Of a stretch of 64,000 bases of DNA, positions 21,257 to 57,139 are shown in pieces. The notes below the pieces were generated by a model. It made no database searches, had not been told where the DNA came from, and saw only the letters and a program-made list of their open reading frames with translations. The stretch spans positions 21,286,177-21,350,176 of the forward strand of contig NC_030858.1 in NCBI RefSeq assembly GCF_000208745.1, read 5' to 3'. The position numbers were made by a program, and so were the translations under genes. The first letter of the stretch is position 1. The number at the start of each line of letters is the position of its first letter. The stretch is from Theobroma cacao (taxonomy: Eukaryota > Streptophyta > Magnoliopsida > Malvales > Malvaceae).

Positions 21257-21512
21257 GGTTAAAGTCGGTAGTTGTATGCGCTGAACCATGTCGACTATTT
21301 TGGGGGTGAGTGGAATGTCCTTGATGAATGTTTGAAGTTACATATGGATACATATATAAATATATAAAGTAAATATATATATTCATATAAATTCTTGTAT
21401 ACATGTTTACACATAGCATCGGGTTTGTTTATGATATATAAAACTGCTTTAGGGGCGAGCCAATTTATATAAATCGAATCTAAATAAGGGCATTACAAAG
21501 AACATAATTTTT

Positions 21513-21735
21513 GTTGCAGCAAAATTGATTTTCGACGGGGCAAGAAACTTTCTGCCTTAGGAGTTACTATTCTTGCCGCAGCCAAATTGATTTTCGCTAT
21601 GACGAGAAACTTTTTGCCTTAAGAGTTACTATTCTCGCTGCAACCAAATTGATTTTTACCATGGCAAGAAACTTTCTGCCTTGAGAGTCACTGATCTTGC
21701 CGCAGCCAAATTTGATTCTCGCCGCAGCGAGAAAC
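21513..21735 (+). repeat. 62-bp tandem repeat with paired CTGCAG-type words (family 2)
   Basis: Four units with a period of exactly 62 bp. Each holds two degenerate copies of a palindrome resembling CTCGCTGCAGCGAG. Positions of the central TGCA equivalent are 21515/21536, 21577/21598, 21639/21660 and 21701/21723: pair spacing 21, 21, 21 and 22. Units are joined by AGAAACTTTCTGCCTT-like text. Confidence 0.85.
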
Positions 21736-22425
21736 TCTCTGTCTTGTTTGGAAATCTACTGCAGTTCTCACTTCTTAACTTCATTGTTGATCATGGATCC
21801 TTCAACACTAAGAGATTAAATAATCAAGGGTTGAATTAAGGGGTTTAAACAAGAAATTAAGCTAAATTGCATTGTTTTTAACATAAGTGCATCATGTTTT
21901 CTAAAACTTTCCGTATCGTTTGCTTGTTCCCTTCCTATGTTCACTCACTGGGTTTATACTTACTTTTTTCAACTTCATGTTTTTTAGATTCGAAGGCAGT
22001 TGGGACTTAGATTGAGGTGTCCACTTATATTCACCTTTTCGTAGGTACCATGGCATTCAGTAGCAGTACCTGTACCAAAAGTCATTACACTGGTAGTCAA
22101 GGGTCTTTTGTATGTGTACATGTACACTTGATGTAAATTTCTAAGACTTATGTTATAAACAATATATACGTATTTTGATTGATGATGCCACTATGAGTTG
22201 GCAATGGATGACATTGTTTGGGGATGATACAAATGTAAGTATTTAGTTGCCATAGTATATTACTGAAATACTTATAGTTAAGAATTACGAAATGTGGCTT
22301 TAGAAATGATAATGTATAATTGATAGAATAATGAATAGGATCACGTAAAGAGGCTTGCTTGGGCTTAGTGGGCTGGGCCCATTGGGTCCATGCGTCGATC
22401 ATGGCTCAGGATTTGGCCTATGACA

Positions 22426-34258: not shown

Positions 34259-34718
34259 AAGAGTCAACCTTAAAGAAGCTTTAATTGACCCTATGGAAAA
34301 ATGGTTGAGGAACAACTGAAGAATTATGAAATGTAGAAGGCATAGTTGACCCTAAAAGCACCATAGTCGAGCTTGTGACAAGATGGATGAAAAATCACGA
34401 AGACATGAAGCCATAGTCGACTTTATAGAAGCTATAGTCAACCCTGAGACAGAATGCAAACCCAACTCAAGATTTGAGTAGCCATACTTAACTTTGATGA
34501 AGCTATCGTTAACCTTGAGGTAGAACACTTGCAAGAATCAATGCTTTGAGAAGCCATAGTCGACCTTCAAGCACCTATAGTCGACTACACCAAGCTTAAC
34601 TTTGAAAATCACAAGCTTTTGGAAATGGATCAAGTAGAAAACCTCAAGAGTCAAATATGGAAACCCTAATTGAAGATTTTAAGGAACCATAATTGACCTT
34701 AGAAGCATGGTAGTAAAC
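34259..34718 (+). repeat. 71-bp tandem array of paired GTCGAC words
   Basis: Six pairs of a degenerate CATAGTCGAC word, each pair separated by exactly 21 bp (start positions 34259/34280, 34341/34362, 34412/34433, 34483/34504, 34555/34576, 34688/34709). In the core, pairs recur every 71-72 bp, so words alternate 21 and 50 bp apart. AGAATGC occurs 18 bp after the second word of the third pair (34451). Many words show CG to TG or CA changes. Confidence 0.85.
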
Positions 34719-34786
34719 CCTATAAGCACAACAAAGGCCAGATCTAATTCAAACTTGTGTCTAATGGCTGCAAACATCCATGATAC

Positions 34787-34794
34787 TATAAAAG
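34787..34794 (+). promoter_or_regulatory. Probable TATA box of copia element 2
   Basis: TATAAAAG lies about 70 bp downstream of the last GTCGAC-type word and well before the LTR end, in keeping with a U3/R boundary shortly after it. Confidence 0.55.
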
Positions 34795-35535
34795 GTTGCC
34801 TGTGACTCATTTTGAAGTAAGAGAAGACCAGCACTACATTTGAAAACACCAGAGAGAAAACTTCTACATCTGTATAGCTATCTAGACTTTATTTTAGTCT
34901 TCCACCAAGCATTCAAAGCCTTTCAAGCTTATCCACTTGCAAATCCTTGAGCTGATATTTGTGAGATTATTTCTTCTTTTTATACACCAAATCTTAAACT
35001 TTTAGCACCCAGCCTTTGTGAGGCAAATCTTTGCTATTACTTTTTTGCACACATATTTGTAAAGGTTCTAACTTAATCTTGAAAAGTTAGTGTATGGGTT
35101 ATCACTTGATTTCGTTAAAAAGTTGGTGTAAGGGTTATTTTTGATCTTGTGAAAAAGCAATTGTAAGTTTTATCTCTTGATCCCATAAAAAGCCATTATA
35201 AGGGTTATCACTTAATCCAATTAAAAAGCTAGTGTAAAGGTTATCACTTGATCTCATGAAAAAGTAAGAATCTTTTTAGTGAATTGAAAATTCCTTGGTG
35301 AGCCAAGGGAGTGGATGTAGGCACTTGAGAAAGCTAAACTATTATAAAATCCTTGTGTCTTGATTTATTTTTATGCTTTGTGATTTATTGTTGATATTTA
35401 CTTTGCTTTTGACACAAGAAGAAAATTTGTATTTCAAAAACGGTTTATTCTTCATTGAGCTTGCAAAGAAAATTTTTAAAATACTAATTCACCCCCTTTT
35501 GATATTTATTGCATTGAGCTTACTACACTAACAAT

Positions 35536-35547
35536 TGGTATCAAAGT
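35536..35547 (+). promoter_or_regulatory. Primer-binding site of copia element 2
   Basis: TGGTATCAAAGT, 2 bp after the LTR end, resembles the initiator tRNA-Met site TGGTATCAGAGC with two substitutions. Confidence 0.75.
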
Positions 35548-35629
35548 AAAGGCTCAATTTTGCAAGTCTAACAACCTTGAGTGATCTGTTGTCTTGAGTG
35601 ATCCGTTGTAGTAGCTTAAATCATTAAAA

Positions 35630-36690
35630 ATGGAGGTTACAGCAATCGTGATTGGTGAATGGTAATCAATCCAAAGGCCACCTTTCTTTGTAAGTACTAA
35701 CTACCTTTATAGAAAAAAATGTAAGAAAATGTTTATAGAATCTATGAACTTGGATGTTTAGAATGTTATATTAGATGGTCCACATGTTCCATATAAGGAA
35801 GTAGATAGCAAATTAGTCATTAAGACTGAGAGAGAATGGAAGAATGGAAATAAGAAATTGATTCAAATTAATTACGAATCCTATAACACTATCATATGTG
35901 CCTTGGGTGCTAGTTAAATTAACAAAGTCTCTATGTGTGAAAATGCTAAGCAAGTATGGGATACTTTAGAGACCACATATGAGAGCACAAATCATGCTAA
36001 GGAATCTAAGATTAGATTGTTAACTCATGACTATGAACTTTGTAGGATGAAAGAGGATGAATCAATTAATGAGATGTTTGAAAGATTCACTAACATTGTA
36101 AGAGGTCTAAAGGCTTTAGGAAAAGAATTTCCAAATGCTTAACTTGTGAAGAAAATTCTTTATAGCTTACCAAAATCTTGATGACCTAAGGCTACTGTTA
36201 TACAAAAGGCTAAAAATCTCAATGATTTTAAACTAGAAGGATTTATAAGATCGTTTCTTACTTATGAGATGATATTAAAGCATAAAAGTGAGAGAGAGGA
36301 ACCTATGAAAAAGAATGTTAAGAAAAAGGGAACAACCCTTCAATCCGTAGTAGAGGAAGAAGAAAGAAGCCAAAAGAGTGAGAGTGAACAAAAAGAGGAC
36401 ATAGCATTGCTAGCTAGAAAATTTAATAGGTTTATGAAGAAAAATCTTAGAGCTAGAAAACCTACAAGGAGGGATGTGCCTAAGAAAGAGCATACAAGAG
36501 ATCACTTGATATGCTATGAATGCAAGAAACTAGGTCACACAAAGTATAAATGCTACAACAACAAGAACATTTCAAGAAATTTTAAGAAAAAGGCAATGAA
36601 AACCACTTGGAGTGATAGTGATGGCTCACAAGAAGAGGAAGATAATGAAGTTGTAAATTTTTGTCTTATGAAACTTGATGACTACAAGAT
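35630..36690 (+). pseudogene. Copia element 2: gag (broken)
   Basis: A copia gag of the UBN2 type starting near ATGGAGGTTACA at 35630. Readable parts are VWDTLETTYESTNHAKESK, LLTHDYELCRMKEDESI and MFERFTNIVRGLKALGKEF (35933-36142), then a lysine/glutamate-rich region and an intact CCHC zinc knuckle CYECKKLGHTKYKC near 36510-36552. In-frame stops occur near 35663, 35761, 35916, 36140 and 36180. The knuckle binds packaged RNA in functional elements. After the knuckle the frame runs on into a second gag start. Confidence 0.85.
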
Positions 36691-37380
36691 CCAAGATATG
36701 ACAATCAACTCTCATGAGCCAACCATCGAAAAAGGACCATCACTTTTAGAGCCTCCACTTTTTGATGGTGAAGATTTCTTTATTTGGAGATATAGAATGA
36801 ACTACTTCATCATTGATAAAGATTATGAAGCTTGGAAGCAAATTAAGAATAGATCACACAAAATAAAGAAAGACATGGGCAGTTGGGATTCAAATGGTTT
36901 TGATTTTATTTAACTTAATGCTTAAGCAATGCACCCCGTTTATAGTGAACTCGAAGAAAAACAATACAATCAAGTTCAAAGTTGTGTGAGTGCCAAAGAA
37001 ATATGGGAAAAGCTAGAAGAACTATATGGACAACCTCTAGAAAAAGAGCTAAAAAAATATGATCTCTTGGATCAAAATTCAGCAAGTGAAGATAAAGAGT
37101 TTAGATAATCTTGTGGCTCAACATCAAACTATGATTTTCTTCCCATGATCACTTGTTTTTACAAATAAAGGATTAGGGAGTACCTTGAATAACTAGCTTT
37201 TTCATTTCTAGAATAAAGCTTAAGTCAAAAAGAGTAAATTACAAAACTTAGAATTAAGAATAATTCATTGATGGAAGAAAACAATCAGTTGAAAGTTGAT
37301 GTTGAAATGCTTCAAAGAAATTATAATCGATTAGAAGAGGAAAACATAAAATTGAAAATATTATGAAAGGAAAATAAAGA
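36691..37380 (+). pseudogene. Second copia gag N-terminal region fused behind the first
   Basis: Directly downstream, in the same reading frame, comes PPLFDGEDFFIWRYRMNYFI (near 36753), the typical beginning of another copia gag, then AKEIWEKLEELYG near 36991. Beyond 37110 the frame is full of stops, with a coiled-coil-like stretch (SLMEENNQLKVDVEMLQRNY) at 37267-37326. A gag N terminus following a gag zinc knuckle is not normal copia order. It suggests a chimera of two elements or a nested insertion. Confidence 0.65.
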
Positions 37381-38242
37381 CATTAGATGTAGAAAGTCTC
37401 ATAAGTTCATTAATTTAGCATTCATTATTTAATTTATCTTCAATGTTTAAGTACTTGTTTTATGCATATATTTGTTAAGATTAATCCTCAAGGATCCAAA
37501 GAAGTTTCGATACCAAAATCAAATGAGAATATCTCTTATAGGTGTGCTAGAACAAGGAGGAACAAACTCTTGAAAAAGAATGCTCCTTGACACACAAAGG
37601 AATATTGGTAATTTCTATATCAAAAGGTATTTATTTGTTTGGTTTAAGAGTTTTGATTTGTTTGCCTATTCTTGCTTGAATATCAAATCGCATAATTATT
37701 TGTTCATTCTCCCTCGAGCTTGATAAGTTTTGGACTACTTGAATCGATATCTTTAAAGCATAATAAGCTTACAAGAGAAAAATGATTGCCACCCATGAGT
37801 TTATGATGATTGATGGATTGAACAACTTTGTCTCATGATGAAAGTACTTATTAACTTGTTCTTGTTGCATGTGCATGGTCACTTGTAAATTTGAATGGTC
37901 ATGAAGAAATTTTTAGTTCATAATTATGAAAAATTTGAAAATGAACATTGGTATGCATAAATATATTTCATTATGCTCATCACATACTTCATAAATCATT
38001 TAGAGTATAATTGAACAAAGTGAGTGATGTGAAACTCATGTGCTTAAAATGACATTGTATGAGTTACATGTCTAGATATATTCATTATGGGTAGATGAAA
38101 TAGTCTACCCTACAAATTCTATTTATAATGTTTCAGTGGAGTCTCTTAAGTTTAGAACCTGTAGTTAGTGACAGTAGGCACAATGTCTATTTCGTTGTAT
38201 AATGGTGATGTCTATTTTGTTGTATAATGGTGTTACCTTTAA
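37381..38242. other. Decayed AT-rich sequence, unassigned
   Basis: No reading frame or LTR landmark that I can support; it may be the remains of copia element 2 or of LTR K. A repeated phrase 'tgtctatttcgttgtataatggtg' style doublet lies at 38190-38232. Confidence 0.4.
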
Positions 38243-38544
38243 TTTCTTTCAAAATAGTGGGCATTGTACCATTGTCAATGTGTCATCCAAGATAATGGGG
38301 ACTATACCAATATCAATGTGTTGTCCAAGATAGTGGGGATTCTACCATTATCAATGTGTCATCCAAGATAATGGAGACTGTACAATTATCAATGCATAGT
38401 CCAAAATAGTGGAGACTGTATCATTATCAAAGAGTCATTTAAGATAGTAAGACTATACCATTTTCAATGTTCTGTCCAACATAATGGGGATTGCACCATT
38501 ATTAATGTTTGTCTTAGATAGTGGGGACCATACCATTATCAATG
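38243..38544 (+). repeat. 38-bp minisatellite (LTR K)
   Basis: About eight tandem units of 37-38 bp with the pattern GTCCAAGATAGTGGGGACTG followed by TACCATTATCAATGT. Unit starts are near 38243, 38281, 38319, 38357, 38395, 38433, 38470 and 38508. It lies upstream of the TATCGATA word pairs of the same LTR once inserted elements are removed. Confidence 0.85.
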
Positions 38545-38586
38545 TTTTATTATGTATTACTTAAGATAGAACTCCATAAGTTTATA

Positions 38587-41580
38587 TGTCATGACCCGAT
38601 ACTTTCCTCGAGCCCATGACAATCGCCGCGATGTTCCGATAGACATTCATTACCTAGAATGCCAACCGAAACTCTACAAGGCTTTAATATCAGTTTTCTC
38701 ACCTCCCTTGTGAGAAACAATTGTTAAGTATCATGTTTTGAGAGATTATAAACTATTTCCAAATCAAAACAATAGAAAAATAATTTTTCGCTCACAGGGG
38801 CATTTTGGTCATTTTTTCTCGAAAGTCTCAAAACTAGCTAAAAATGTAGTATGTGAGTGGAAAACACATATTTCATAATAAAAAATAAGTTTAGATATCT
38901 AAAACATTCATTTAAAGTGAAATTATAACTATTTGAATATAATAAAAGTATTTAAAAAAATATTCTATTTTCTTATAAAATAATATTTATAGAGTTACCG
39001 GTAAATAATTTTTGTAGCGTAAAAGCTAAATAAATTCATACATACTGTAATATAGATAACCAAAGCATAAAATTTAATTTACAATGACATGTGGGCCCAC
39101 GAACGACCAAAAGTATCAAAAGCGGTAAACTTATAGTTTTTGAGGATGCAAGTCCAACTGTAGCCCACAACGAAATGAGCTATTTACCGACTATCTTGAG
39201 CCTGAAATGGGTGAAAAGGAGGGTGGTGAGATTATATAATCCCGTTGAGTAAACAAATACCATTTAAAATATCTAAAGCTGAGTAAATGGAGACAGATAA
39301 AATAGTTTAACATACTGTAATTCATCACCTTTCAACTCATTTCAACTAAATAAAATCAATTCATATAAATTGAGTAATCAACATGGCTTATGAATTTCTT
39401 AAAACTTTGGCTCGTGCCAAAATCATTCTCATACTCAGTTATCAGGGATACCTTGGCCGAGGGCTATTCCAACCGAGTCCACTAAGGTTGTTAAAAAGTG
39501 ATGTATGCATAAATCATGTTTTTATTTTGAAAACATAACCGTTCCTTGGCGTTAGCTGAGTTCACTCTCACATGGTGGTTTAGCGTGAAGTGAACTCTAA
39601 AGTGTTAACCTCAAGAGTTATCCATCCGCGCCTCTCATACTGAGGTATGAATATAATAGGGTTACCGTGCCCCCTTTAATAGGCTAGTCCACGGAACCCG
39701 TCCATTGCAGCGACTAATCAATAACCCACTAATTCAATAAAATTTAACAACATGACATGGCAATTTTATCATTATCCAGCCTATCAAGGCAAATAACAAT
39801 TTATTCATTTTCAACACAGATACCAATTCAACCATTCATGTCAATATTATCATAAGCCATTCAATTCAAACCATGATTTATAACACAACAATTAGTCTCT
39901 AATTACTCCATTTTCAAAACCATCATTCAATTTCAAGACAATTTATAAAATCATTTCATTTAAACACATTTTGTTTATAAAACCTTAAGATTTACCATTT
40001 AAACACATTTTTCTATAAAATCACAAAAACAAATAAAAACTACTTTAGATAATTAAGATGATAGTAAGGTTACTCACTATTTTGGGAGTCAAATTTTGAG
40101 TACTTCGATTCTTGATCCTCGGGTACTATTTCTTTACTTTTGCCAGAATGCTCACCACCTAGACATAATGCACAATAAGCCATTTACTACATTTGTGCTA
40201 AATTGTTATAAAACCAATTCAGACTCTATACTAATGCATAAAATGGGATGTGAAATACTCGGGTAACTATCTAAATACGATGCTCAATATAAATTCAATT
40301 ATGTACCTAAATAAAACAGTATTGGCCTAATTCGATATATCACCCGATTAATTGGCCAATACGTCCAATTCAACTCCAAATAATTTCATTTTTTCCCCAA
40401 TACTCCAAATCATCAAACACAAATTAAATAACTTGAAATATGGCAAAATCATCCTCACATTTTCTCTTGGAAAATTTGGCCATGGTGGGTACATCAACAC
40501 TATACTTTTTCCTACTTGATTCTCACACCATAAATCACTAATTCCTAACCAAATCACTTGAAATAAAATTAAAATCATCCTCAATATTCCACATGGAGAA
40601 TTCGACCAATGATGGGTGATGGAAGAACATGAATTTTTCTTGCTTGATTTTCATGCTACACATCACCAATCAACTAAAAACACTAAAATACATTGAAATC
40701 TAACCAAATCAAGCATCAAAACCTCTCTCTAAGTGTTCAGCCAGCAAGATACCCATCATGAAATCATGTGATTCAACCATGGAAAATGCAAAAGAATGTA
40801 TGGGAAAGGTAGATCACAAGTCAAAATCAAGAAATTTTACCTTTGATTGCTTGATTACTTGAAATCCACCAATTTTCTTTTGAATTTTCACCCTAGGGTT
40901 CTTGTTCTTTCTTTTCTTCCTTTGTTTTTGCTTTGGCCGGCCATATGAAGAGAAATGGGCTGATTTTATGCTGATTTTTAAGCCAAATAATAAATGGATG
41001 AAAATTTGACACATGTCACCATTCCATTGGTCCATGTGTCATACTTACCCATTAAGCAATTTCTCTCTACCACCTAAATTTCCTCAATTATCCATGATAA
41101 TATTGGGTAAAATCCATGTGTTGGACAAGTGTTGGGTGGTGTAAAATTACAATTTTACCCCTAAGGTGGTAAAATGACTATTTTGCCCTTATGCTCGAAA
41201 AAATGCCGAAATTAAAAATTTTCACTTCTTAAACTCAAATTACACTTCAAATGATCAATCTTAGTCAAAATTTTCATCCAACACTCACATCTTAACCTCG
41301 GGTGGCAAAATGACCATTTTACCCCTAGGTCATGAAAATTCTAATTTAACTCCAAATTGGTCCTCAAACTTCGAATCACCATTTTAAGTCATTTTGGGGT
41401 TTTAAAATTCTCAATTTCATCTTAAAATCTCTATTTGGACTAGTTCGAGGCTTAATTCAACTTAATTGTACCATTTGGTACATTACCGTCTTTTAACAAT
41501 TTTGGAGGTACTCAAGTAAACAAACATGCATTCTTATGTAGGAATGGCATAATAAACATATTGTAGAGCTGGGCTTGACA
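38587..41580 (-). mobile_element. Solo LTR of family 1 (copy F), 2.99 kb, TSD TTATA
   Basis: It begins TGTCATGACCC and ends GGGCTTGACA with perfect TTATA duplications (38582-38586, 41581-41585). It is the best gap-free copy of family 1 in the window and serves as reference for copies A-E and G. Contents include the inverted repeat 39558-39597, a GGCCGGCC-type word near 40935, and several 'tttgccc/tttaccc' stretches near 41150-41340. There is no internal region: it is a solo LTR inside LTR K. Confidence 0.93.
39558..39597. repeat. Family-1 40-bp inverted repeat (copy F)
   Basis: GAGTTCAC at 39558-39565 and GTGAACTC at 39590-39597. Confidence 0.75.
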
Positions 41581-41585
41581 TTATA

Positions 41586-41888
41586 AGCTTGCTAAGTATG
41601 AGTTTGAACCCTTAAATGATATTTGTTTGGTTAGATTTTAAACTCAAATTTGATTCTTACTTGTTTGTAGAATGATTTGGAAGAATTTATGTTTGAATGT
41701 GTTTAATGACTTGTTTTGTATATAAAATTAGGATATTTTGATTGAGGATTGATTAAACCTTTTGTTGGAAGTCAAAAATCTAGAAATTGTTAGAAATCAG
41801 GGAAATTTTAATTAAGGTATTGATACCCTTTGAATGTGGTGTTGATAACTAGCCAACAGAATGCTCTAGGAAGCATTCTATGTTCTAA
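41586..41888 (+). mobile_element. LTR K, segment between insertions F and I
   Basis: Host sequence of both F and I. It contains the first TATCGATA-type word pair (41818/41840) and the 22-bp dyad AGAATGCT...AGCATTCT at 41858-41879. The sequence continues at 47520 after removal of I (duplication TCTAA 41884-41888 = 47515-47519). Confidence 0.7.
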
Positions 41889-42974
41889 TGTAATACCTTG
41901 TACTTTGATAAGGTGGCTAATAAAGCTTATTGGATGCCAATTGAGGTTAATTAAAGTGTTTAAAAGTGATGAAAGGCGAAAGGAATAGTTTGGAGAAAAT
42001 ATTTTGCATATGAAGAAATAATAATAAAATAATAATATTTTTATTGAGAAAGAATTAGCAAGATAAAAAGTGATTCGGAAGTGAATCGAGGCACAATAAG
42101 ACATTTTGGGTGATAAGGAGACAAGTGAAAAATTTTATAATAAAATAACATTTTTTTAATAAAATATTAATATTTTATTTAATGTAAAATTTTTCATGAA
42201 GAAGGAGTATATGGTCAATCTAAGTGGGGGAGAAGAAGAACGAGAAAATTTCAGAGGAAAATGACGTTAATTGGGCTCGCATGTCCTTATTAAATAAAGC
42301 TAACACGTGTAAGTAACTATTTTAAATATTATGGGGACATTGCGTTGGAGTACAAACTTTATATTTCGGTTGTACATGTGCAAAATAAGATAATAGAAGG
42401 AAATTGAAATTTAAAAGATTGTGGGAGGATACAATTAAAAATGGTGAAAACCTTGAAAGGCAAAATGGTAATTTTGCCATTAGTTTGGTCAAAGCTTCCA
42501 AAGGAAGCTTTGACTCTTTACTTCCTTATCCATGACCGGTTCTTATCTTCTCCAGTAGATATTTTCTTTTTCTCTTTCATGCTCCTATGAGACCTTGACC
42601 TCTATAGGCTCGTAATTAGGTATAGTCACAATAACACGGGCTAGGGTAGTTTCGTCATTTTCTCTAATAAGCTCCTAGAAGAAAGTTTTATGATATTTTA
42701 AGGTCTAAATAAGCATAAGACCACATAAATGATTTGTAATGATGAAAACAAAAAGAAAACTAGAAATGACAATAATTTTCACTACAAGGGTAAAATGGTC
42801 ATTTTTACCTTGTGTCAAAATTTTTCAAGTTTCGTAAACCCAAACATGTCTAGACCATTATGGACTTTGTCCTAGTGTCAAAAGAGTAAAAAGATTGCAT
42901 ATAGGGGTGGAGAAAGACAAGCTAAATTATTAAAGGCATTTTCGTAATTTCTAAAGGAGTGGATAAGCTTGGGC

Positions 42975-42982
42975 TATAAATA
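42975..42982 (+). promoter_or_regulatory. Probable TATA box of family-2 LTR H
   Basis: TATAAATA; the same box is at 13895-13902 in copy 1, about 390 bp from the LTR start in both. It is followed by a pyrimidine-rich transcribed-looking leader. Confidence 0.55.
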
Positions 42983-43799
42983 TCTTCTCCTTCCAGCAGC
43001 TTCTTGAAATTCTAGCAGCTTCTTCTTCTTCTTCTTCTCCTCTCAATTCACGTTACTTCCAACCTCCATGGAAGCTTGATATGGAACTTGCATAATTTTC
43101 TCTCTCTAACTTTAATTTTCATACCTTTGTGCCCTTTTGACTAGAATCCTTCTATTCTTTCACTCTCTCACTTCAAAACCCTTGATAAATCTTATTTCCA
43201 TACTTTCTCTCACTAGTTAGGCATTTTAGAGAGAGAAAGAGAAAATTACACCATTTGTTTGGAAGCTATTGGAAGAGAATTCAACTACAAAGAAACCCTA
43301 GGGTGAGTGGTGAACTAAGCTTGATTTTTAGCTGTGAATAATGACTAGTAATTGGGATTATGAGCTGTTTTATTGTTGAGTATGTTCATTCCTTTTATAG
43401 TGATTAAGATAGTGAACATAGATAGCCATTTAAAGTGGCAATTGAAAGCTTGCTAAGGGATAACTTTTAGAGTTTATAAGTATGAATTGACATTATGGTA
43501 ATGTTAATTTGATGGTAGGTTCTAACGAAGCCCCATCACCCCAATTGGATCATTAGGGGAATTAGAGTCAGCAAAAGGCTCAACAATATGTCGGTGAGTG
43601 AACTGCCTTCAAAACTTGTTTTGGGAATATAATGTATTTGCCACACATTTGAATGAATTATAAAGTTTTTCATAAAAATAAGTGCCTTGGGAACAAGCTT
43701 TTGTTAAATGGTTTTATGTGGGGATATGTGATTGGTATGGATTCATGCACTATTGCATTATGATGATAAATATATACGTGTGTTGTGCATGATGATTGA

Positions 43800-44010
43800 T
43801 ATTGTGTATAATGACTGTAACCGCGTGTGTGCACAATGTGGGGGATGCACATGCTAGTGATGATGGTGGTGTGAGAGGTGGATGATGATAATGCTCGTGT
43901 GCATGATGTGGGGGGATGTACATGATGGCACTGATTGTGCACGATGTGGGGGGATACAATGATGGCGCCGGCTATGTGCACGATGTGGGGGGATGTACAT
44001 GAGCTGGGTG
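43800..44010 (+). repeat. GTGCACATG-type minisatellite in LTR H
   Basis: Degenerate units of GTGCACAATGTGGGGGATGC type followed by ACATGATGG. The long histidine/proline-rich reading frames on the opposite strand are by-products of the repeat. Confidence 0.75.
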
Positions 44011-44218
44011 TAACTCTGATGATATTGATGTTTATCTATGTAATTATGCATATCTATACTTATGAAATGAAAGCTCATGAATATGATATATGATTGACAT
44101 ATGTGTGAAATTTGATACATTGCACTTTGGGAATTTTCATGTGTTTTATGTTGATTTTGTTGGTTTAGCAAGATGGCCTTTTTTGAGTGAAGGGAAACTT
44201 TTTTCTTGGTGCTCTGTT

Positions 44219-44630
44219 TCTCGCTGCAGCGAGATTCATTTTCACTGCAGCAAGAAACTCTAGGGTTTTGAAGGGGTAGGCTGGCCGAAAACTCGCTGCA
44301 ACGAGAATCCATTTTTGCTACAGCGAGAAAGGTACTGCAGCTTTTTGCTACAGCGAGAAACATTCTGTTTTAGGACCAAAATTTTGTTGCAGTGAGATTC
44401 ATTCTCGCTGCAACGAAAAACTTTCTGTTTTGTTTCCTTTTTGGTTTGGTTGCTACTCCATTTTCCATTTCTTTGGTACCATAGTTGAGCTTGGACTTCC
44501 AACATGAATTAAGTTTAAAATGAGTAGGTTTGGTGAGAAACCCTTGGCCAGTTGAGGAACCCTCGTTCGGCTAATAACTTAATCCCAATGTCGCAACTGT
44601 AGCGAGAATGAATTTTTACTGCAGCGAAGA
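44219..44630 (+). repeat. CTGCAG-type word pairs in LTR H
   Basis: Palindrome copies resembling CTCGCTGCAGCGAG, with central TGCA equivalents at 44225/44246, 44297/44319, 44388/44409 and 44598/44620: spacing 21, 22, 21, 22. Single extra copies lie at 44336 and 44349. AGAAAC and TTTCTGTTTT follow the words, as in copy 1. Confidence 0.8.
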
Positions 44631-46474: not shown

Positions 46475-46712
46475 ACGTGTGGTGTGGGAGTGCACATGAC
46501 GGTGCCAGTGGTGTGCGGTGTGGGAGTGCACATGCCTGGAATGATGTGGGCGAGAGTGCATGTAATGATATTGCAATGTGCGTGTAGGGAGTGCACATGA
46601 TGATATTGAAATGTGCGTGTAGGGAGTGCACATGATGATATTGAAATGTGTGTGTAGGGAATGCACATGATGATATTGCCTTGTGTGTGTAGGGAGTGCA
46701 CATGAGCTGAGT
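46475..46712 (+). repeat. 35-bp GTGCACATG minisatellite in LTR I
   Basis: Six or so units; the central ones repeat with a 35-bp period (AATGTG at 46575, 46610, 46645), each containing GGGAGTGCACATGATGATAT. Three overlapping Cys/His/Thr-rich frames on the minus strand derive from it and are not genes. Confidence 0.85.
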
Positions 46713-47514
46713 AAGGCGACGATGGTGTACATGTATATATGCTAAAGACAAGTTATGAAAATAAAAAATGTGATTGTACTATATGCTATAGAATGCCTTT
46801 CTGCTGCAACGAGAAACCCTTTGTTTTGCTTGTCTTGATTGGATATTTGCTATAGTTTTTACTCTTTTCAACTCCATTGTGGATTATAAATCCTTGACCT
46901 CAAGGGATTAAATAATCAAGGGTTGAATTAAGGGCTTTAGAAGAAATTAAAATAAATTGCATTGTTTTCAACATAAGTGCATCATGTTTTCTAAAACTTC
47001 CTGTATTGATGCTTGTTCCCTTCCTATGTTCACTCACTGGGTGTATACTCATCCTTTTTTTTCAACTTCATGCTTTAGTTTATAGAATCGAAGGTAGTTG
47101 GATCCTAGGTCGAGGCGTTCCCTCCTATTCATCTTTCGGTAGTTCACTATGACTCTCAATGATAGTAACCCTACTAAAGTCACTCTGCTGATAGTCAACG
47201 TCTTTTGTATGTGTCTATGATTGTTTAAGTGTAATTCGTGAAAGTTATTGCAAATACTATGTGTTTGGTTTGAATAATAGTGCTGCCACACGTAGGCAAA
47301 TGGTAATATTATTTTGTGAATACTATATGCTCGATTGCCATGATTTAACTCGTGAGAAGGAATTATTTTTGAAAATTATGAATTGAGAACCTTAAAGGTA
47401 AATGAGAGACAAGCAGTTTAATGAATAAGTTTTCATAGAAAGGCTTGCTTGGGTTCGATGGGCTATGCCTATGGGTCCATGCGCCAGTCATAGCCCAAGA
47501 TTTGGGCTGTGACA

Positions 47515-47700
47515 TCTAAGTGTCAATACCTTGGGTATAGGTATTGATACTTGGAAGCTAATAAGAATTACATGTAAAAAGTATCGATAATTTTAGTATA
47601 AGTCTCAATACCTAGTACCCAAAATGCTCTAAAAGGCATTCTGTATGAGAAGTAATGCCACATTTGAGCTAGGTATTGATACTTAAAACATTTTCTGTAG
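47515..47700 (+). repeat. TATCGATA-type word pairs and 22-bp dyad in LTR K
   Basis: Word starts are 47521/47542 and 47582/47603 (both 21 bp), then the dyad AAAATGCT...GGCATTCT at 47621-47642, then a degenerate word at 47653 with its partner at 47674 (21 bp). The dyad starts 18 bp after the preceding word and ends 11 bp before the next, the same as at 41840-41890 when insertion I is removed. Confidence 0.8.
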
Positions 47701-47867
47701 AAATTCATACTTTTAAATGGGTTTTGGATGCTTTTAGCTTTAATATTTCAAACCAAACTCCTAAGAGGTTTTGTGTTCATTTAAAACTATCTGAATGATG
47801 TTCAAAAACACTTTTATTGCATGATTTGAATGAGAATTTGGATTTAAAGTAAGATTGTTGTTGTTGA

Positions 47868-49368
47868 TTTCACTACACAAGTACATGTATCGCTAACAAG
47901 TAATATAGTGAAGAGTAGAGTCTTGTTCTCACAAGAATTTATTACCAAAATTCGTTAATTACTAAAATTAAAACACTTGAATCTTATCCAAACACACAAT
48001 CTAAATTAAGGAGTAATATAAAAATCTAAACTAGTAATAAAAATGACAATTTAAACTTGAGAAATTAATCAAAAAACACTTAAGATTATAATTTCCCTCA
48101 ACACTTTATTTGAATCTCTTTTACTTTCTCGTAACTTAATAAATGAAATGAGTTGTTAACCTAAAGTTTTAATTTATTTATAAGTATTTTATGATGTTCT
48201 TATAAAAATATCTCTCATAACCTATTTACTATATTCCTATGCAAATTAAATCAAAGAAAGATTCATAAGCTTAACTCTAATATTGGCTACATATAACATG
48301 TATATTCCTATCTCACACGCGAAACAAATCATTCAATCAACTAAATGAATTTGAACATATACTATTCCATCCATGGCTTACACTAAAGTCCATTTCCAAG
48401 TTTATTTAGGCTACCTAATCAATCTAATTAATGATCAATCAATCAAATGCATTAAACACAGAATTAGAATAAACAACTCAACTACCATTAATCATAAGAA
48501 AAAGAGAATATTAAAAATCCAAACCGCATGTTGAGTTCAATTGTAATCCTAGAAAAATAAATTTACCTCATCTTAAATATTGAAAACATAATCCAAAGAA
48601 GTTTAACCATCAATTAAAATATAAGAAAAACTAAAAAAAAACAAAAAAGAAAAGAAAACTAAAGATTTGTCATATCTTCAATCTTTCAAAGTCTTTCTTG
48701 CCTTATTGTATGCTTGATGGCTACTTTTCCTTCAAAGAAACCTAGTTCAAATGTGTCTTTTAATTGCACCAAAGGTGCCTTTAAAGAGCTTCCAAAAAAA
48801 CCTACTTCGAATCAAATTCAGAAAAAAAATTTGAAAAAGATATCATGTTGGCGTCGTGACCTCCACTTTTTGGCACCACGGCTCCTAACTCCCTGATGCC
48901 TTGGCATCGTGGCCTTACTTCTTTAGTGCCACGATGCCCTGCTTGCTACCCCATGTACGGCTGCCTCATTTTCTTGGCATTGCTACGCCAACTTTTCCAT
49001 GGCCGCAGCACCCAACACTCAGGTACCATGCTTCTTCACTTCTCTTTGTGGCGTCATGGCTCCTAATCTTTCAGAGCTGCGACGCCATGCTTGTTGATTT
49101 TTGGCTCTATTTACTTTTCTTCATGATTTGGAACTCCGTTTCATAGGCACCTTTAAAAAAAAAAATTCAAACTAAATTACTTACATAAGAAATCGAACTT
49201 AATTTACATAAAACTTAACCAAGATCACTAAAATTAAACTATTAAAAATAATTAAACCTAAACTTTAAGAAACAAACTAAAAACGAAGAATTTCTAATAA
49301 ATCTCAAGGATTTAGCCAATTCTAATGCTCAAAATGTAATAAAATAACTTTATGAAATAGAGTTATCA
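47868..49368. repeat. Unclassified interspersed repeat, copy 1 (~1.5 kb)
   Basis: It shares its start (CACAAGTACATGTATCGC, then AAGTAATATAGTGA and GAGTAGAG) and its end (AATAGAGTTATCA) with 53353-54950. It is non-coding, A-rich, with a central block of TCGTGG/CCACGG words. It interrupts LTR K. The ends suggest short TGATAA/TTATCA inverted termini, but I could not find a convincing target duplication. Confidence 0.6.
48849..49090 (+). repeat. CCGTGG/CCACGG-type words in the unclassified repeat
   Basis: GGC(A/G)TCGTGGCC-like words and their inverses. Pairs with centres 22 bp apart: 48854-48859 with 48876-48881, and 48907-48912 with 48929-48934. The related copy at 54341-54380 has CCGTGG (54352) and CCACGG (54373) 21 bp apart. 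Confidence 0.55.
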
Positions 49369-49782
49369 ATTGCATATTTGATGAAAATGGGCTTTTGTGC
49401 AAACACTCATGCTTAAGCTTGTTCCCCCTCCTCGTATATGCTTACTAAGTTATAAACTCACAAATGTAAATTTTGGTTGTGTTTTCAATTTAGTAGAGCT
49501 TCAGTTTGATGTCATTGGAAAAGCTCCATATATATTTTTGGTAGGTGTTTGTTAAGGTATTTGGTATATGTTGCTTATCTTCGAGTCAACTCTGCTTATC
49601 TGTTTAGTGTTTGTGTGTTTCAAAGTCTATTACAGTTCTTGGCCATGTTTGTAAAAAGTTTATGTATTTTATAACTTAGCCATGAGATGGCTTATGACTA
49701 TATATATTTGTTTTGAAATATTTTATCTATTTTGAATGTTTTGAGCATATGGTGTGCATTTGAATGTTGCTCCAAGATATGA

Positions 49783-49813
<31 letters not shown>

Positions 49814-49978
49814 AGGAGGTGTTCATATAGATATATGCATGAATGTGTTGAGATGAGTCTCATTTTTTAATGTTGTGTTAAGTATATCCATTTGTTTGTA
49901 TCTGAGGCTTGCTTGGATCAAGTGGGTTTCACTTCTTTGGTCTTTGTGTTAGTCATGGCCCTAGATTAGATAGTGACA
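49369..49978 (+). mobile_element. 3' end of LTR K
   Basis: It carries GCTTGTTCCC at 49417-49426, a GGTAGGTG module, an (AC)n microsatellite at 49783-49810 and the terminal block GGCTTGCTTGGATCAAGTGG ending GATAGTGACA at 49978. A primer-binding-like site follows, so this LTR was a 5' LTR and the family is read in plus orientation. Confidence 0.7.
49783..49810. repeat. (AC)n microsatellite
   Basis: Fourteen AC units without interruption. Confidence 0.95.
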
Positions 49979-49982
49979 AAGT

Positions 49983-49994
49983 TGGTATAAGAAC
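49983..49994 (+). promoter_or_regulatory. Decayed primer-binding site after LTR K
   Basis: TGGTATAAGAAC lies 4 bp after the LTR end and differs from the initiator tRNA-Met site TGGTATCAGAGC at two positions. Confidence 0.6.
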
Positions 49995-50892
49995 TAAGTA
50001 GGGTTGGTAGTGTTGTCTTGCTTACAATTTTTGGGAACTCTTACACATAAACAGTAGTGAAGCATGGCTATCCACTTAAGGGCTGCAAGGATCAGTGGTA
50101 AGAAAGGGTGGTACCTGTCTATGTATCACGACCCAATCTTAGGCCATGATTAGCACAAGGACTAACTAGGCAAAGCCTACTTGACACAAACAAGCCTTAT
50201 ACATATTAACCACATATGTATTGCCACATAACCACTACCGCACATAAACACATAATTTCACATATATTCATAGAAAACATACTTTGTGCAGTACATCAAC
50301 ATAATGTCATTTGCTCTTTAAATATCAAGATCATATCAACATTCTCTTGCACATTTTGTGTGCTCATGTAGGCCTTTAATCCATCACATCCGTTCATATA
50401 ACATATGTCAAAGTATAATGCCAATCATTGGCTACAAAGTAAAAAGTGTATAACAACATTGTAATAAACATAAGCAAAAGTAAAGTCATCAGCAGAACAT
50501 GACATGATACAAGGAGGCTTCATGAAAGGCCTCTAGGTATACCGACCAAAAGCAAGACTTAAGGATCCCTTCAACATTACAATTTAAGCTAACTTAAGAA
50601 TCTGAAAACAAAATAGAATTAACATGTGTGAATTATAAAAACAAAGTGAGAAAACATGGGGAAGGGAGTAACTTAAAAGGGGAAGTTTTTATATAAACCA
50701 CATTTCATAAATAAACATGTATTTAGAAAAAGTTATCAATTTTATCCAAAATTATGAAATAATGTTATTTCCCGCTCATTTGAGTAATTCTAGTTGAAAT
50801 CATAGTCATTTAGAAGTTTAGATTGAAATGAGAAGTCAAAACATGTGAAAAGCCTTTAAAAAGAGAGTAAGCGAGCTTAATTGTACCATAAG

Positions 50893-51094
50893 TATCAGTA
50901 ACTCTTTGAGGAATATCGATACCTTCCATTTAGAGAGCTACTAAATGCTAGGTATCGATACCTTTTTGAGAGGTATCGATACTTCCTATTAAGTATGACA
51001 CTTTCCCTCAAAAGGATCTATACTTTTTGCATAGAATGCCTTATAAGGCATTCTGCTTGCTAGGTATCAATACCTTTTTCAAGAGATATTGATA
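50893..51094 (-). repeat. TATCGATA word pairs and perfect 22-bp palindrome in LTR L
   Basis: Word pairs at 50893/50914 and 50953/50974 (21 bp) and 51065/51087 (22 bp). Between them, 51033-51054 is a perfect 22-bp palindrome (half-site AGAATGCCTTA). Read on the minus strand it begins 18 bp after the word ending at 51065, as in K and M. A degenerate word (51015-51022) follows 11 bp after it. Confidence 0.85.
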
Positions 51095-51344
51095 CTTCAT
51101 TCTTCCAGCCTAGAAATTGGGCTATTTTTTCCAAAAAAAAAAAGGTCTTTAGGACCTCACTATCCCTACTACCTTTTAATCAACATAATACCTTACATAA
51201 ATACACACATACACAATCACTAATTCATATAACTACCTTCCACTTGTAATTCCTATCTTAAGATTTAACCAGCTAGAGCATATATATAATTCCAACACGT
51301 AAATCAACTACCACAATAACATATATCAAGGATATATCAACTTT

Positions 51345-51670
51345 AAGGATAGTGGTATTTCCACCCCACCATTTAGGAAATAACCAAGGGTGCACTAGCC
51401 TAAGGAGATAGTGATATTTTCGCTTCACTACCAAGGCAATATTAAGGGCATTCTACTCAAGAGATATTGGTACTTTCACACCACCATTAAGGAAATATTA
51501 AAGGTGTTCAACTTAAGAAGTAGTGGTGTTTCTTCTCAATTACTAAGGCAATATTACGGGTATTCAACTCATGAGATAATGGTATTTCTGCCCCACTACT
51601 TAAGCAATATTAGGGGTATTTAACCCATAAGATAGTGGTATTTTGCCCCATTACTTAGGTAATATCAAAA
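51345..51670 (-). repeat. 56-57-bp minisatellite in LTR L
   Basis: About six tandem units of the type GAGATAGTGGTATTTCTGCC followed by CCACTACTTAGGCAATATTA and GGGTATTCAACTCAT. It occupies the position of the 38-bp array in K and the GTGCACATG array in family 2. The Tyr/Ser-rich reading frame through it is an artefact. Confidence 0.85.
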
Positions 51671-52788
51671 GTTCGAATCAAGGCCAACAACATACATCAT
51701 TAGCTCTAGTCATGGTATCATCAACAATTATCAACATTTATATATGAGTTTTACATATTCCATTTTATCCACAATATATTCAAACATTAAGCCTAACTTA
51801 ATGATACACATAGTAACTATATTATAGAAATCACATTGCTCATAATCATTACAACAACCACCATTAATCCATTTTGCAATAAAACACATTTGAAGGTGCT
51901 GCCCTTATGCAAATATACTATATAGATATACATATTTACATAGCATAATATATTTGTAAGCTTATTAAAACATTGAATACAACTCCAAATCGTTTATAAT
52001 ATAGGATTTGTCAAGTAAAACATTTTAATGCTATGTATTTTTGGAATATCATCATTTGGCATTTGAACATGAAGGGCATGCTTATTAAATGTCAAAATAA
52101 TTTGAAAACTCCATGTCTACTCATAAGTACAAAGATTGCCTTTCCTCTAACACCTCTAATCGATCAAATTTGTTCAGTACTCAATGCTGGAACCTTCCAC
52201 AACAACTAACAATGATTTAACAATGTGAAATCCCACTTTGAGTAAGAGGATAAGTTAGGAAATCCATAGGTGAGTATATAAATTACATGTTTTGAATATC
52301 AAACTTAGTTTTAATCTTCAAAAAAGAATTTATTGACACTTTGGTTGTTCGTCACTTTTGAAGCAAAAATTTTTCTAAGTTTGGGAAGAGTCAAAATATG
52401 TGATTTTATAGAACAATCTTTTGGAAGTAAAAAATGGCGATAATGATTCCCTTGGTATTTAAATGACCAAAAATGATTTTTTCATAATTTTTGGAATGTG
52501 TTTGCTATGGTAAATGGGAGCTACAAATTCAATATAGGTCGAACTTTTTTGACTTTTTTCTTGAAACCAAAATTTGGATTTTTATTTTTTTAGATTTTGA
52601 TTTTTTGATATTTTTATTGAATTCAAATGGGGGGCTGCTTGCTTATTTACATTAAATATCTTAAGTAAATGGAGACTAAAAAGGAAAGAAGTAAAAATGA
52701 GGAAATTTACTTAAATGGTATTTAATATAAATAAGTTAGGCAGGTTTCATAGGTAATCTATCTCAAAAACTGCATTTCGTTTCAGTTG

Positions 52789-52867
52789 TATCGATACATA
52801 TTCATAATGTATTGATACAATTTTTCTAAAACCAAATGTATCAATACATGGCCCAAATGTATTAATA
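52789..52867 (+). repeat. TGTATCGATACA word pairs upstream of a TATA box (LTR M)
   Basis: Four words, core starts 52789, 52810, 52839 and 52860: two pairs, each spaced exactly 21 bp. Cores read TATCGATA, TATTGATA, TATCAATA and TATTAATA, with TG...CA flanks preserved. Confidence 0.9.
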
Positions 52868-52923
52868 CATTTCGTCATTTTCAAAAAATAAAAGGGGTAA
52901 AATGATATTTGCACATTCAAAAC

Positions 52924-52931
52924 TATAAATA
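52924..52931 (+). promoter_or_regulatory. Probable TATA box of LTR M
   Basis: TATAAATA, 57 bp after the last word of the 52789-52867 array. Confidence 0.5.
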
Positions 52932-53352
52932 GCTCACATTTTTTGAGGGTTAGCAACCCTCAGCTACATTTGCAAGGTAAACCCTCAACTCCAAGGGTCT
53001 TCTAACCCATTTTTAACTAAAAACTCTATTTTTATGATTTTAAAGCTTAGTTTTGGATTTTTATGGAAAAGATGACATTTTTAGCTTTGAAATCTTTTGG
53101 TCTTGGATCCAGAATTAAAATAGTTATTTTAATGCCTAGATATTTCTATGGATTGCTAAAGTTTAAGACTTTGTGTTTTTCTTAAGCATCTAAGCTCACA
53201 TAAGGTAAGGATGAAGGATTTATGGGTTTTTAAGCATTGATTTGGTTGAGTAGTCAGGCGATTAAGTTAGAAATTTAGATTTAGTTGAATTCAAATAGTT
53301 TCGAAAGTACCTAGAGTGATTACTATGAGATTATTGTTCTAGGTAATGATTG

Positions 53353-54950
53353 TGATAATTTTTCACGCAAGTATACGTATCAAATAAGTAATATAGTGAT
53401 GAAGTAGAGTATTGTTCCCACGGAGATTTATTCCTAAATCTTTACTAAGTACTAAAATTTATGACAAATCAATCTTATTTAAGTAACTAAAATTTTTAAA
53501 AAATTAATTAAAACAAAATTAAAATAAACACTAAATTAAATAATAGAAATTAAAATTACTTGAGAAAGGCAATATATTAAAACCTAGGATTATGGGTTCT
53601 TTCAACAGTTTATCTGATACCAGCTTCTCTTATTATTTACATTCATGGGTAGTTTTACTAACCTAGAATCCAAAGCTATATACAAGTCTTCGTCAAGATG
53701 ATTGTGCAAATACCTAACTTAATTGAGTCATTATATGTCTATAGAATCAACTAAATTAGGTTCATTAAGCATGTGTTCTAATTTGGCTATGTATGGCAAT
53801 TGATGTATGTATACTTGAATCGTGAATAAGATCACCTAAGTGATGTGAACATACATTATTCAAACCTTAGTCCACTTTAAAATCTCTTTGTCGAGTCTTA
53901 ATTAGATTCACAAATCAGTTAATTGTTGGCTAAGCAATCAAAAGAATTAAGAACAGATTTGAATAAGCAAAACTATACCCATTCATAGTAAATAAAAGAG
54001 AAACAAAATTCATATTACATGTTGAAATCCACCACAATCCTAGAAAATAGTTAGCTCACAATATCTAATAAAAACAATATCAAAAGAAATTTAGCCATGA
54101 ATTCAAAACAAGAAAATAAGAATAACACAAAAGTAGAGAAAGAAACTAATGTTAGATCCTAATAAATCTCAAAACTCTCTCAATTGCTCTTGAATTCTTG
54201 CTTGATTCGTAACTCCAATTCTCCAGAAAAGCTACTTGCTTCCTCTCTCTCTGAATGCTCTAGAAAAAGCTCTTAAATACGTGCAAGGGTGCCCTACTTT
54301 CCAATTTTTCATCAAAGTTTTAATTATGGAAATTAGGGTGGCATCACGGTGCCGTGGTCATCGTTGGTAGCGCCACGGCTCCATTCTCTCAGGTTTTTGT
54401 ATGATGCTCCCAAGATGCTCAGCACCGAGACCATTTCTCTCTTAAACTGCGGCGGTATCACTTGCAGTGTCGTGACACTTTAGCCATGCTATTTTAATGC
54501 AAAGCTGCATTTGTCCACCAATTTTGAACATGATTTTCACCTTGATCTAGTTAGAACTGGGTCAACATAAAAGTTGTATCCTATTCTCTTAGCTTTCTAA
54601 TGGATCAAAAATAACCTCAATTGGATTTCTTCAGCTCAAGTTATCTTCAAATTACTGCAACATGTATGAGTGACACTTTCTCCTCAGTTATGCTATCATA
54701 TCTTTCTTTCACCTCGCACATCATATTCTGCACAAAACCATGAGAAAAATCGGCAAAATCTTTTCTTAACATAAATTGAGGCAAAATAAAGTGGAATTAA
54801 ACTAACACCAACTAATTTAACTATTCAACATAAAATCTAACTTACACTAGAAAAACAACTTAAAAGGTTAAAATTCGATCCTAAACTCAAGGGTCTAGCA
54901 ACTAAAGTCTCCAAAATGTGTAAAAATAACTCTATATAATAAAGTTATCA
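53353..54950. repeat. Unclassified interspersed repeat, copy 2 (~1.6 kb)
   Basis: Starts TGATAATTTTTCACGCAAGT and ends AATAAAGTTATCA; TGATAA and TTATCA form short inverted ends. It is similar to 47868-49368 at both ends and in the middle (AAGTAATATAGTGA, TTGTTCCCACGG, the CCGTGG/CCACGG words at 54341-54380). No protein motif was seen. It may be a non-autonomous DNA transposon; class not established. Confidence 0.6.
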
Positions 54951-56033
54951 TAGGAACGCTTGAAAACTCTATGGATTTCACCAAAACAAAGTTATGATTG
55001 GAGCTAGGAAATTGACTCTTCAATTAGGTGAGTGGATACACCATTTTCAAATTATTTTGATATGTAAAGCTAGCACGATTTCTAGAGAAATGATTATTTA
55101 TGTATGTTGAAATGATCTTTAAGATGGTTTATCAAATAATTTACGTTTCAAGAATGAAAATGGTTTTCTAAGAAATTAAATTGTTAGTGATTGTGATATG
55201 ATTGATACAATGATTCTTAAAACATTTATGAATCTACTATGCATGTAAATATTCTACTATGTATTAGTTTTCAACAAGGGAGGATAAGCACCTTATTGAT
55301 TTAAGCACTCGATTACTCCAGTCTTTAGATTAGTGTGGTTACAAGATTTATGATTAATGCATGAATGCTATGACGTGCATGTTAGATATGTTGAGGCATG
55401 AAATGTGTGATGGATTATATGATGATTTTTCATCTAAGATGCTATGTTTATGTATATGATGTGTATTCCATATATTACATAAGGTGTTTGAAAAAGCACG
55501 ATGAATGCCATGAGATTATGTATGTAATGTATGTTTTACATACTACATGAGAAAATGGAGTAGGCATGAGGAATGCCACGAGGAGTGTATATGATGTAAA
55601 TTCCATATATCTTATGAGATGAGTAAGCATGTCTGTGCAGGACATTCCACATACCACATGCTATGAGTACAAGAACTCAATGAGTGCAATTGATTCCATT
55701 CTAATGGGGTGCAAGTGATCACTTTACTCCTATGATGCATCATAAATGCCTAAGGTGCAATGGAGATGTACATTGTCAGCCCAAGGTTGATGGGGGTCAA
55801 ACCATCATAATTTGTGAGTTTAATATTAACGGAATAATTATAATTTTTATGATTTATAATATGTTGCATGTTAAGTTCATTTGAGTATTGTTTATGATTT
55901 ATACTTTATGATGGCATAAAAATGTGCTTAGTGAAAAGAATTAAGCCTTAATGATAGTCCCAAGAGGTAAGGGGACTTAAGGAATGGCAAAAATGCAGAA
56001 TTTTACCCATTAAATAGAGTTTTAAAGTCTATT

Positions 56034-56133
56034 TATTGATACATGTAGAACATCTATCAATAGATAGCAGACTGAATGCAACAGGAAGCATTTTGATTCG
56101 AATCTATCAATAGATTACCTTAATCTATTGATA
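56034..56133 (+). repeat. CTATTGATAG word pairs and 22-bp dyad in LTR M
   Basis: Word cores at 56034/56055 and 56105/56126 (both 21 bp). The dyad TGAATGC...GCATTTT (56073-56094) starts 18 bp after the second word and ends 11 bp before the third. Same geometry as in K and L. Confidence 0.85.
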
Positions 56134-57139
56134 GAGGAGTTCCAAAATTGTATGTATTGGCTTATTTACAGGCTTTCAAAGGTAAAAAATTTTCTAGAGG
56201 CTATACAAATTTGTTTATCTCACAAATGCTATTTAAAATGTGTTTAAACACCATGTTTCATGAACTTTATATTTAAATGGTTTATGAATGGCAAGAGATT
56301 ATAAGTGCATGTTTATGAAATACTCTTATCCCCTAACTTGTCCCATTCTTGTATCCACTCATGGAGTTTTTGTGACTCACATAGTATTTTCCTCTTTATG
56401 TTTGTTGCAAATTAGTGATAACACTCTCTTGCTAGCAGCTAGTGTCATGGAGACGTGATCCGTTCATACTTCATTGGTAGGTGCCTAGCAACCTCTTGAT
56501 GCCTAGAGAGTTTAGTCATGTTCCGCTGCTGAGTTGATCTTTTATTTTGTTTATAAATAATTGTTTGCATTCGAATGTTAACCCATTGTGTGGCAAGTTA
56601 CATTCATGATAATATGTGAATATTATGAATGTTGAGCCATGGAATGGCATAAGGAATGTTTATCGAAATCATGATGTATTCATTTTCTCAAAATCATGCA
56701 ATTGTTTTAGCTCCTTTAAACCCCTCATGTAAACCCCACATGAGTAAATCACTTTACAAAAATCCATGCTCAACTATGGTACCAAAGAAATGAGAAATAT
56801 GGCAAAAACCCATAAGTTAGCAAAATGGACAGAAAGTTTCTCGCTGTAGCGAGTACTAGTTCTGGTGAAGGCCTTCAAACCCGAGAGTTTCTCGCTGTAG
56901 CGAGAATGAATTTCGCTGCAGTGAAACAGAGCAACAAGAGAAACATTTTTCCTCCACCCAACAAAAGGGTCATCCTACTAAACCAACAAAATCAACATAA
57001 AACTCATGAAAATTCCCAAAGTGCAATGTATCAAATTTCATATATATGTCAACCATATATCACATTCATGAGCTTTCATTTCATAAGTATAGATATGCAT
57101 AATTTGATAGACAAACATCAATATCATCATAATCACACC

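Follow-up and report, generated by a model that had tools for sequence, protein, structure and literature searches.

A 64,000-nucleotide stretch of the Theobroma cacao genome (C9:21286177-21350176; hereafter, the window), made up mainly of nested, decayed long terminal repeat (LTR) elements, carries arrays of short words that recur in pairs about 21 bp apart. Such arrays were found with four words, those of the GTCGAC-A, GTCGAC-B, TATCGATA and CTGCAG families, each with a narrow pair spacing and variable spacers, and their carriers include at least one copia and at least one gypsy element. We lean, at somewhat better than an even chance, towards explaining them as LTR regulatory arrays of dimer-binding sites, paired two helical turns apart in several retrotransposon families.

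The spacing peak holds outside the window. Pairs of each word were searched across the whole assembly (324.85 Mb in 431 contigs, the ten large ones ~20–41 Mb) with spacings of 12–42 bp permitted, and the control was the same pattern read backwards, which is itself not an equivalent palindrome pair. TAGTCGACC pairs were detected at 48 places, 45 of them at 20–22 bp (37 at 21, 6 at 20 and 2 at 22) and three at 13 bp; each strand had 24 against none for the reversed pattern. Spacings of the other three words were read from the first 50 forward places, which lie on C1 alone or on C1 and C2. TAGTCGACTA had 262 forward pairs (control, 0), with 46 of the 50 listed at 20 bp, 3 at 21 and 1 at 22, and CGCTGCAGCG had 470 (control, 0), with 26 of the 50 listed at 20–22 bp and the others at 24 (n = 1), 30 (n = 6), 34 (n = 1), 39 (n = 11) and 40 (n = 5). 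For TATCGATA the count was 1872 (control, 77), and 34 of the 50 listed were at 19 (n = 2), 20 (n = 17) or 21 bp (n = 15), the remainder being at 29, 33, 35–37 and 40–41; a narrower search permitting 16–24 bp returned 1254 pairs (control, 43), and all 50 listed were at 19–21. The proposal of a preliminary description of this DNA, that the word changes by family while the spacing is kept, is supported genome-wide for the four words. The spacers vary: in the TAGTCGACC search 34 of the 37 at 21 bp were distinct, with a mean identity of 0.44. In the pairs compared for orientation (below), the central 7 nt of the spacers had an identity of 0.30 compared with 0.26 expected.

We also scanned 27 stretches of 10 kb (L010–L036), 20 of which were placed before any array had been seen, while five formed a preset grid on chosen chromosomes and two (L035 and L036) were neighbours of array-rich stretches. 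Scanned blind to the words, these stretches gave 21 bp as the commonest lag (n = 4), followed by 22, 27, 29, 55 and 60 (n = 3 each). Nine pairs were at 20–22 bp, six of them in the first 20, blind-placed stretches, and none appeared in ten shuffles. When the four words themselves were scanned for, 23 of 88 adjacent spacings were at 20–22 bp (random placement: mean 5.1, maximum 14 in 5,000), and 31 clusters were found, some of which look like chance clusters, compared with 1–6 in 20 shuffles. Across the window and the stretches, 14 of 91 palindrome pairs were at 20–22 bp compared with 32 of 768 non-palindromic direct repeats.

Within the window, re-reading all 21 pairs previously listed at 21 bp showed several to be clear and some to fail or to be decayed, and some coordinates sat a few bases beside the word. 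Clear at 21 bp were the eight TATCGATA pairs of the LTRs designated K, L and M, together with three of CTGCAG at around 44 kb and 57 kb. Three others assigned to CTGCAG (21515/21536, 21577/21598 and 21639/21660) were not CTGCAG pairs, their second words being CGGGGC, TATGAC and CATGGC, and all three fall inside a 62-bp tandem repeat. The CCGTGG/CCACGG type does have its inverted pair, but this is the sole pair supporting the type in the window; in L012 the word-blind scan gave a GAGTCGCGGCTC/GAGCCGTGGCTC pair at 22 bp. The copia LTR does have six GTCGAC pairs at 21 bp, but their words are mostly decayed direct repeats: exact GTCGAC is present at three sites of this copia-like array, the mean palindromy of its words is 0.47 over 10 bp, and in the six pairs the direct-repeat match (0.67) exceeds the inverted-repeat match (0.47). 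Its pair-to-pair period is often 71–72 bp.

Placing words by consensus alone in eight window regions put 16 of 36 adjacent spacings at 20–22 bp (13 at 21 and 3 at 22), for which random placement gave a mean of 2.3 and a maximum of 9 in 20,000, and shuffled sequence a mean of 0.02. Because these eight regions derived from the original finding, the main weight rests on the tests outside the window. A cluster scan of the window returned seven palindromic 8-mer arrays with at least five words, some of which are other repeats, compared with 0.3 per shuffle, and in its word-blind scan the commonest lag was again 21 (five pairs).

Under the explanation we favour, each word would be a putative site of a host homodimeric DNA-binding protein. 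Words paired at 20–22 bp centre to centre would be separated by two turns of B-DNA, so that two bound dimers would lie on one helical face and be able to touch. As the word is specific to the family, each family probably has its own protein, with a common syntax. We infer that protein binds the words cooperatively and that the array acts as an enhancer, its dimers cooperating on one face, in activation rather than silencing; the families probably arrived at this arrangement by convergence rather than by very old common descent. Protein sites, which the preliminary description had offered among its explanations, are favoured because the 20–22 bp spacing holds in every arrangement of the pairs and the other spacings tend to whole turns. 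Further words lie near whole turns at ~29–30, 39–41, 50–51 and 60–62 bp, where the spacings other than 20–22 gather: 20 of them in the window gave R 0.79 at 10.4 bp, and 65 outside it gave R 0.35 (Rayleigh p 4e-4 at 10.4 bp), the spacings within one array not being independent. We regard this periodicity as good but not final support. It would also suit phasing by nucleosomes or DNA shape, in which GC-containing words at whole turns in AT-rich DNA set the rotational position of a promoter nucleosome and symmetry is incidental. The spacing fits its ~10.2–10.4 bp per turn, but extended palindromes and family-specific words are left unexplained, and we consider it very improbable.

The carriers were assigned from neighbouring protein domains and primer-binding site (PBS)-like sequences (at most two mismatches to TGGTATCAGAGC). 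Among GTCGAC-B arrays, that of L022 belongs to a copia element (RVT_2, 9e-57; integrase core; gag_pre-integrs), and in L030 a copia gag (1.3e-32) lies downstream of the array, a TATA box and a PBS-like site; L019 contains copia pieces. The CTGCAG array of L033 is carried by a gypsy element: pieces of RVT_1, RT_RNaseH and integrase lie on the array's minus side, as does a PBS-like site. Next to a TATCGATA array in L020 are pieces of a gypsy gag and integrase, a placement that only suggests a gypsy carrier. The PBS context marks GTCGAC-A as copia-like, and the PBS-like TGGTATCAAAG places the window array in a 5′ LTR. A gag-like open reading frame (ORF) there had no match in Pfam or, at E 0.001, in a protein search. 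TATA-like boxes, strictly defined (background 0.10), were found near six of seven GTCGAC arrays and separately for the seventh (7/7), at ~65–145 bp from the array; the single TTAATTAA array had none (0/1). Searches of Rfam returned no matches at gathering scores.

Several observations, besides the dependence of spacings within arrays, weigh against paired dimer sites. A TATA-like box was found near only two of eight TATCGATA arrays and none of seven CTGCAG arrays. Copia subfamily GTCGAC-B2 (L019:1-105 with L037; L024:1-90 with L038) breaks the two-turn rule: both pairs of the LTR are at 13 bp (1.25 turns) and not 20, ~7 bp less per spacer than in L022 and L030, with 53 bp between pairs. The four families are perhaps not independent, because GTCGAC-A and GTCGAC-B share a core. 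Collapsing the spacings to nine levels gave p 0.017 for periods of 10.0–10.7 and 0.19 for any period of 6–20, and some 40–41 bp spacings contain a decayed middle word. Word-blind p values for helical turns were modest (0.004–0.025; non-palindromic control, 0.05–0.13). A loose histogram of near-palindromes across the window rose broadly at ~17–25 bp, without a sharp peak at 21, because overlapping near-palindromes blur the signal. The genome-wide controls were reversed patterns, not palindromes of the same composition such as TATGCATA. We take the resemblances of the array words to DREF, GATA, ARR-B and W-box sites to be leads only.

Orientation within pairs differed by family. Direct repeats make up the GTCGAC-A pairs (n = 10; seven flank sites direct and one inverted), the 19 TATCGATA pairs lean inverted (flank sites: 5 inverted vs 2 direct; centres: 5 vs 0), the 16 CTGCAG pairs have no lean (flank sites: 4 inverted vs 5 direct), and the six GTCGAC-B pairs have no informative flanks (centres: 2 inverted vs 1 direct). 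The feature common to the families is therefore the spacing and not a single orientation; the two-fold symmetry once thought to be kept across families is kept unequally.

Alternatively, paired words could be the arms of inverted repeats folding in RNA or single-stranded DNA, for TATCGATA as arms of ~14 bp with a 7-nt loop (14 + 7 = 21). Such hairpins would serve RNA dimerisation or feed silencing by small RNAs, a role put forward for the palindromes of maize Sireviruses; this precedent we take from part of the text of PMC10760457. The window holds 116 inverted repeats, many at word pairs, compared with 34–51 in ten shuffles. Fold z over both strands ranged from −3.0 to −12.0 in eight TATCGATA arrays and from −2.4 to −8.5 in eight CTGCAG arrays, the reference being 40 control stretches with a mean of −0.72 and a standard deviation of 1.50; palindromic words, however, fold well regardless of their use. 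Centre changes were complementary in all five informative TATCGATA pairs, but a looser count gave 7 inverted vs 4 direct, and the covariation of inner flanks at positions 1, 2 and 4 could stem from subfamilies sharing one extended word. GTCGAC-B2 retains the inverted arrangement even at 13 bp. Folding does not account for the spacings of 30, 40 and 50 bp, and CTGCAG flanks lack an orientation lean. Folding of GTCGAC-A is weak, with z between −0.8 and −5.4 on the two strands, and we rejected hairpins as a general reading for all families because the pairs of this one, spaced alike, are direct repeats. RNA pairing, suggested earlier as kissing or dimerisation, or hairpin pairing may apply to TATCGATA and CTGCAG; we judge the hairpin explanation unlikely.

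The spacing could instead be a legacy of amplification, in which each family's pair arose once and was multiplied by tandem duplication and transposition, without selection on spacing, the families agreeing by coincidence or through very old descent. The arrays are partly tandem (71–72 bp units in GTCGAC-A, 62-bp units at 21.5 kb), GTCGAC-A and GTCGAC-B have a common core, and the joint move of both GTCGAC-B2 pairs to 13 bp, as homogenisation would produce, suggests that pairs are homogenised. On the other hand, length is fixed though spacers differ (34 of 37 distinct, besides the central identity given above), and a shared 3-bp band would arise by chance with a probability of 0.002, or 0.009 for four of five families counting B2, presuming that the four families' modal spacings are independent and uniform over 12–42 bp. 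This origin seems to us quite improbable. A cassette jumping between LTRs, another early suggestion, was rejected because families with different words lack shared flanks: when 18 array regions were compared with each other by BLAST, such families shared a single weak match (41 bp, 75.6%, E 2.6e-4).

The closest known kind of sequence is the repeated motifs (RMs) of Sireviruses (Bousios et al. 2010, PMC2829016, cited here from part of its text). These are palindromic, lie in clusters ahead of the TATA box in the LTR, differ in consensus per element (Vitis, CGGTCGACCG; Tnd-1, ACAATCGATTGT) and were proposed as regulatory. They have a CGG-CCG core (which Tnd-1 itself lacks), at least eight copies per element and extra copies upstream of an ENV-like gene, and were called Sirevirus-specific in comparison with classic elements, which in that part of the text are copia (Pseudoviridae). 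The present arrays resemble them in their palindromes, element-specific words and location in LTRs. They differ in having GTCGAC, TATCGATA and CTGCAG cores without CGG-CCG, in pairs at 20–22 bp, a spacing rule not seen in that part of PMC2829016, and in at least one Ty3/gypsy carrier. Clustering upstream of a TATA box was found for the GTCGAC families only, and a Ty1/copia carrier for GTCGAC-B (L022, L030) but not for CTGCAG in L033. Counted per array, there were ~12 decayed words for GTCGAC-A in the window, 4 for both L022 and L030, and 3–8 for the others; at the single locus L022 one word match with four mismatches (position 3408) lies between pol and the 3′ side.

Maize Sirevirus LTR palindromes have been reported to be small-RNA hotspots (Bousios 2016 as described in parts of PMC5311732 and PMC10760457). 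There, as in the cacao arrays, a cis region of the LTR is rich in palindromes and predicted to fold strongly; a difference is that GTCGAC-A folds weakly. Those parts of the two accounts contain no mention that we could find of a wider use of 21-bp pairs. A literature search, covering few subscription papers, found no report of two-turn palindrome spacing in plant LTRs. In tobacco, the Tnt1 and Tto1 LTRs have short repeated activator boxes in U3 that are bound by host factors and activate transcription; to our knowledge, these are not made of paired palindromes held two turns apart in every family.

A second motif, CAGAATGC/GCATTCTG, reappears in different families in the DNA that separates one palindrome pair from the next. 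Counted post hoc as CAGAATGC or its complement with at most one mismatch, it occurred 11 times near eight TATCGATA arrays (1.3 expected), 3 times near three GTCGAC-B arrays (0.4), 5 times near eight CTGCAG arrays (1.3) and once near three GTCGAC-A arrays (0.8). We tentatively propose, with some doubt, that a single promoter grammar arose by convergence in the copia and gypsy elements of one plant. In it, palindromic dimer sites would be paired two turns apart, the word would be a family address for which a host class of dimer-of-dimers proteins supplies different readers, and the CAGAATGC-like co-motif would be a second part. If true, an LTR promoter spacing rule would cross the copia/gypsy divide independently of the word, and fast word turnover in LTR regulatory regions with function kept would be explained. 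It would also offer a direct test of host factors driving or silencing retrotransposons and a means of finding such arrays in other genomes.

Table 1 Arrays and associated features of the window, in positions counted from its first base
Feature	Position	Strand	Remarks
GTCGAC-A array, copia-like LTR	34259..34720	+	~12 decayed words, six 21-bp pairs; aligned with L027, L028
TATA-like box	34787..34795	+	65 bp downstream of GTCGAC-A array
PBS-like TGGTATCAAAG	35536..35547	+	≤2 mismatches to TGGTATCAGAGC
TATCGATA array	47520..47682	.	Spacings 21, 40, 21, 71
TATCGATA array	50892..51096	.	Pairs at 21, 21, 22; inverted repeats
Inverted repeat AGAATGCCTTATAAGGCATTCT between pairs	51033..51054	.	Contains shared co-motif; read from sequence and motif counts
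TATCGATA array	52788..52869	+	21, 29, 21; two inverted repeats, arms ~14 bp
TATA-like box	52923..52932	+	53 bp downstream of TATCGATA array
TATCGATA/CTATCGATAG array	56033..56135	.	Spacings 21, 50, 21
CTGCAG array, CGCTGCAGCG words	44222..44416	.	Pairs at 21, 22, 21
CTGCAG array	56842..56924	.	51, 21; inverted relative of 44-kb copy
CTGCAG-related 62-bp tandem repeat	21512..21745	.	Single real pair 21698/21720 at 22 bp
Single inverted pair CCGTGG...CCACGG	54352..54378	.	Starts 21 bp apart

An IMG/VR scan for GTATCGATAC pairs returned nine contigs (L001–L009) that appeared by eye to have a non-plant context and were not used. Adjoining array-rich repeats are a MADS-type (SRF-TF) ORF (L024:8611-9807) and an ORF with a B3 domain below the domain cut-off (L035:3060-3923). 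A further palindrome family has TTGTCTTAATTAAGACAA-like words with spacings such as 21, 27 and 29 bp (L024:793-960, L031:2150-2350). On the minus strand of the window are a decayed copia element that retains domains of gag, integrase and reverse transcriptase (5109-8917) and, at ~24.7–27.0 kb, pieces of the Neprosin and Neprosin activation-peptide domains, likely from a host gene. Related LTRs contain minisatellites of GTGCAC units with periods of ~19, 35 and 38 bp (window 21164-21252, 43898-44002, 46512-46705 and 57147-57249).

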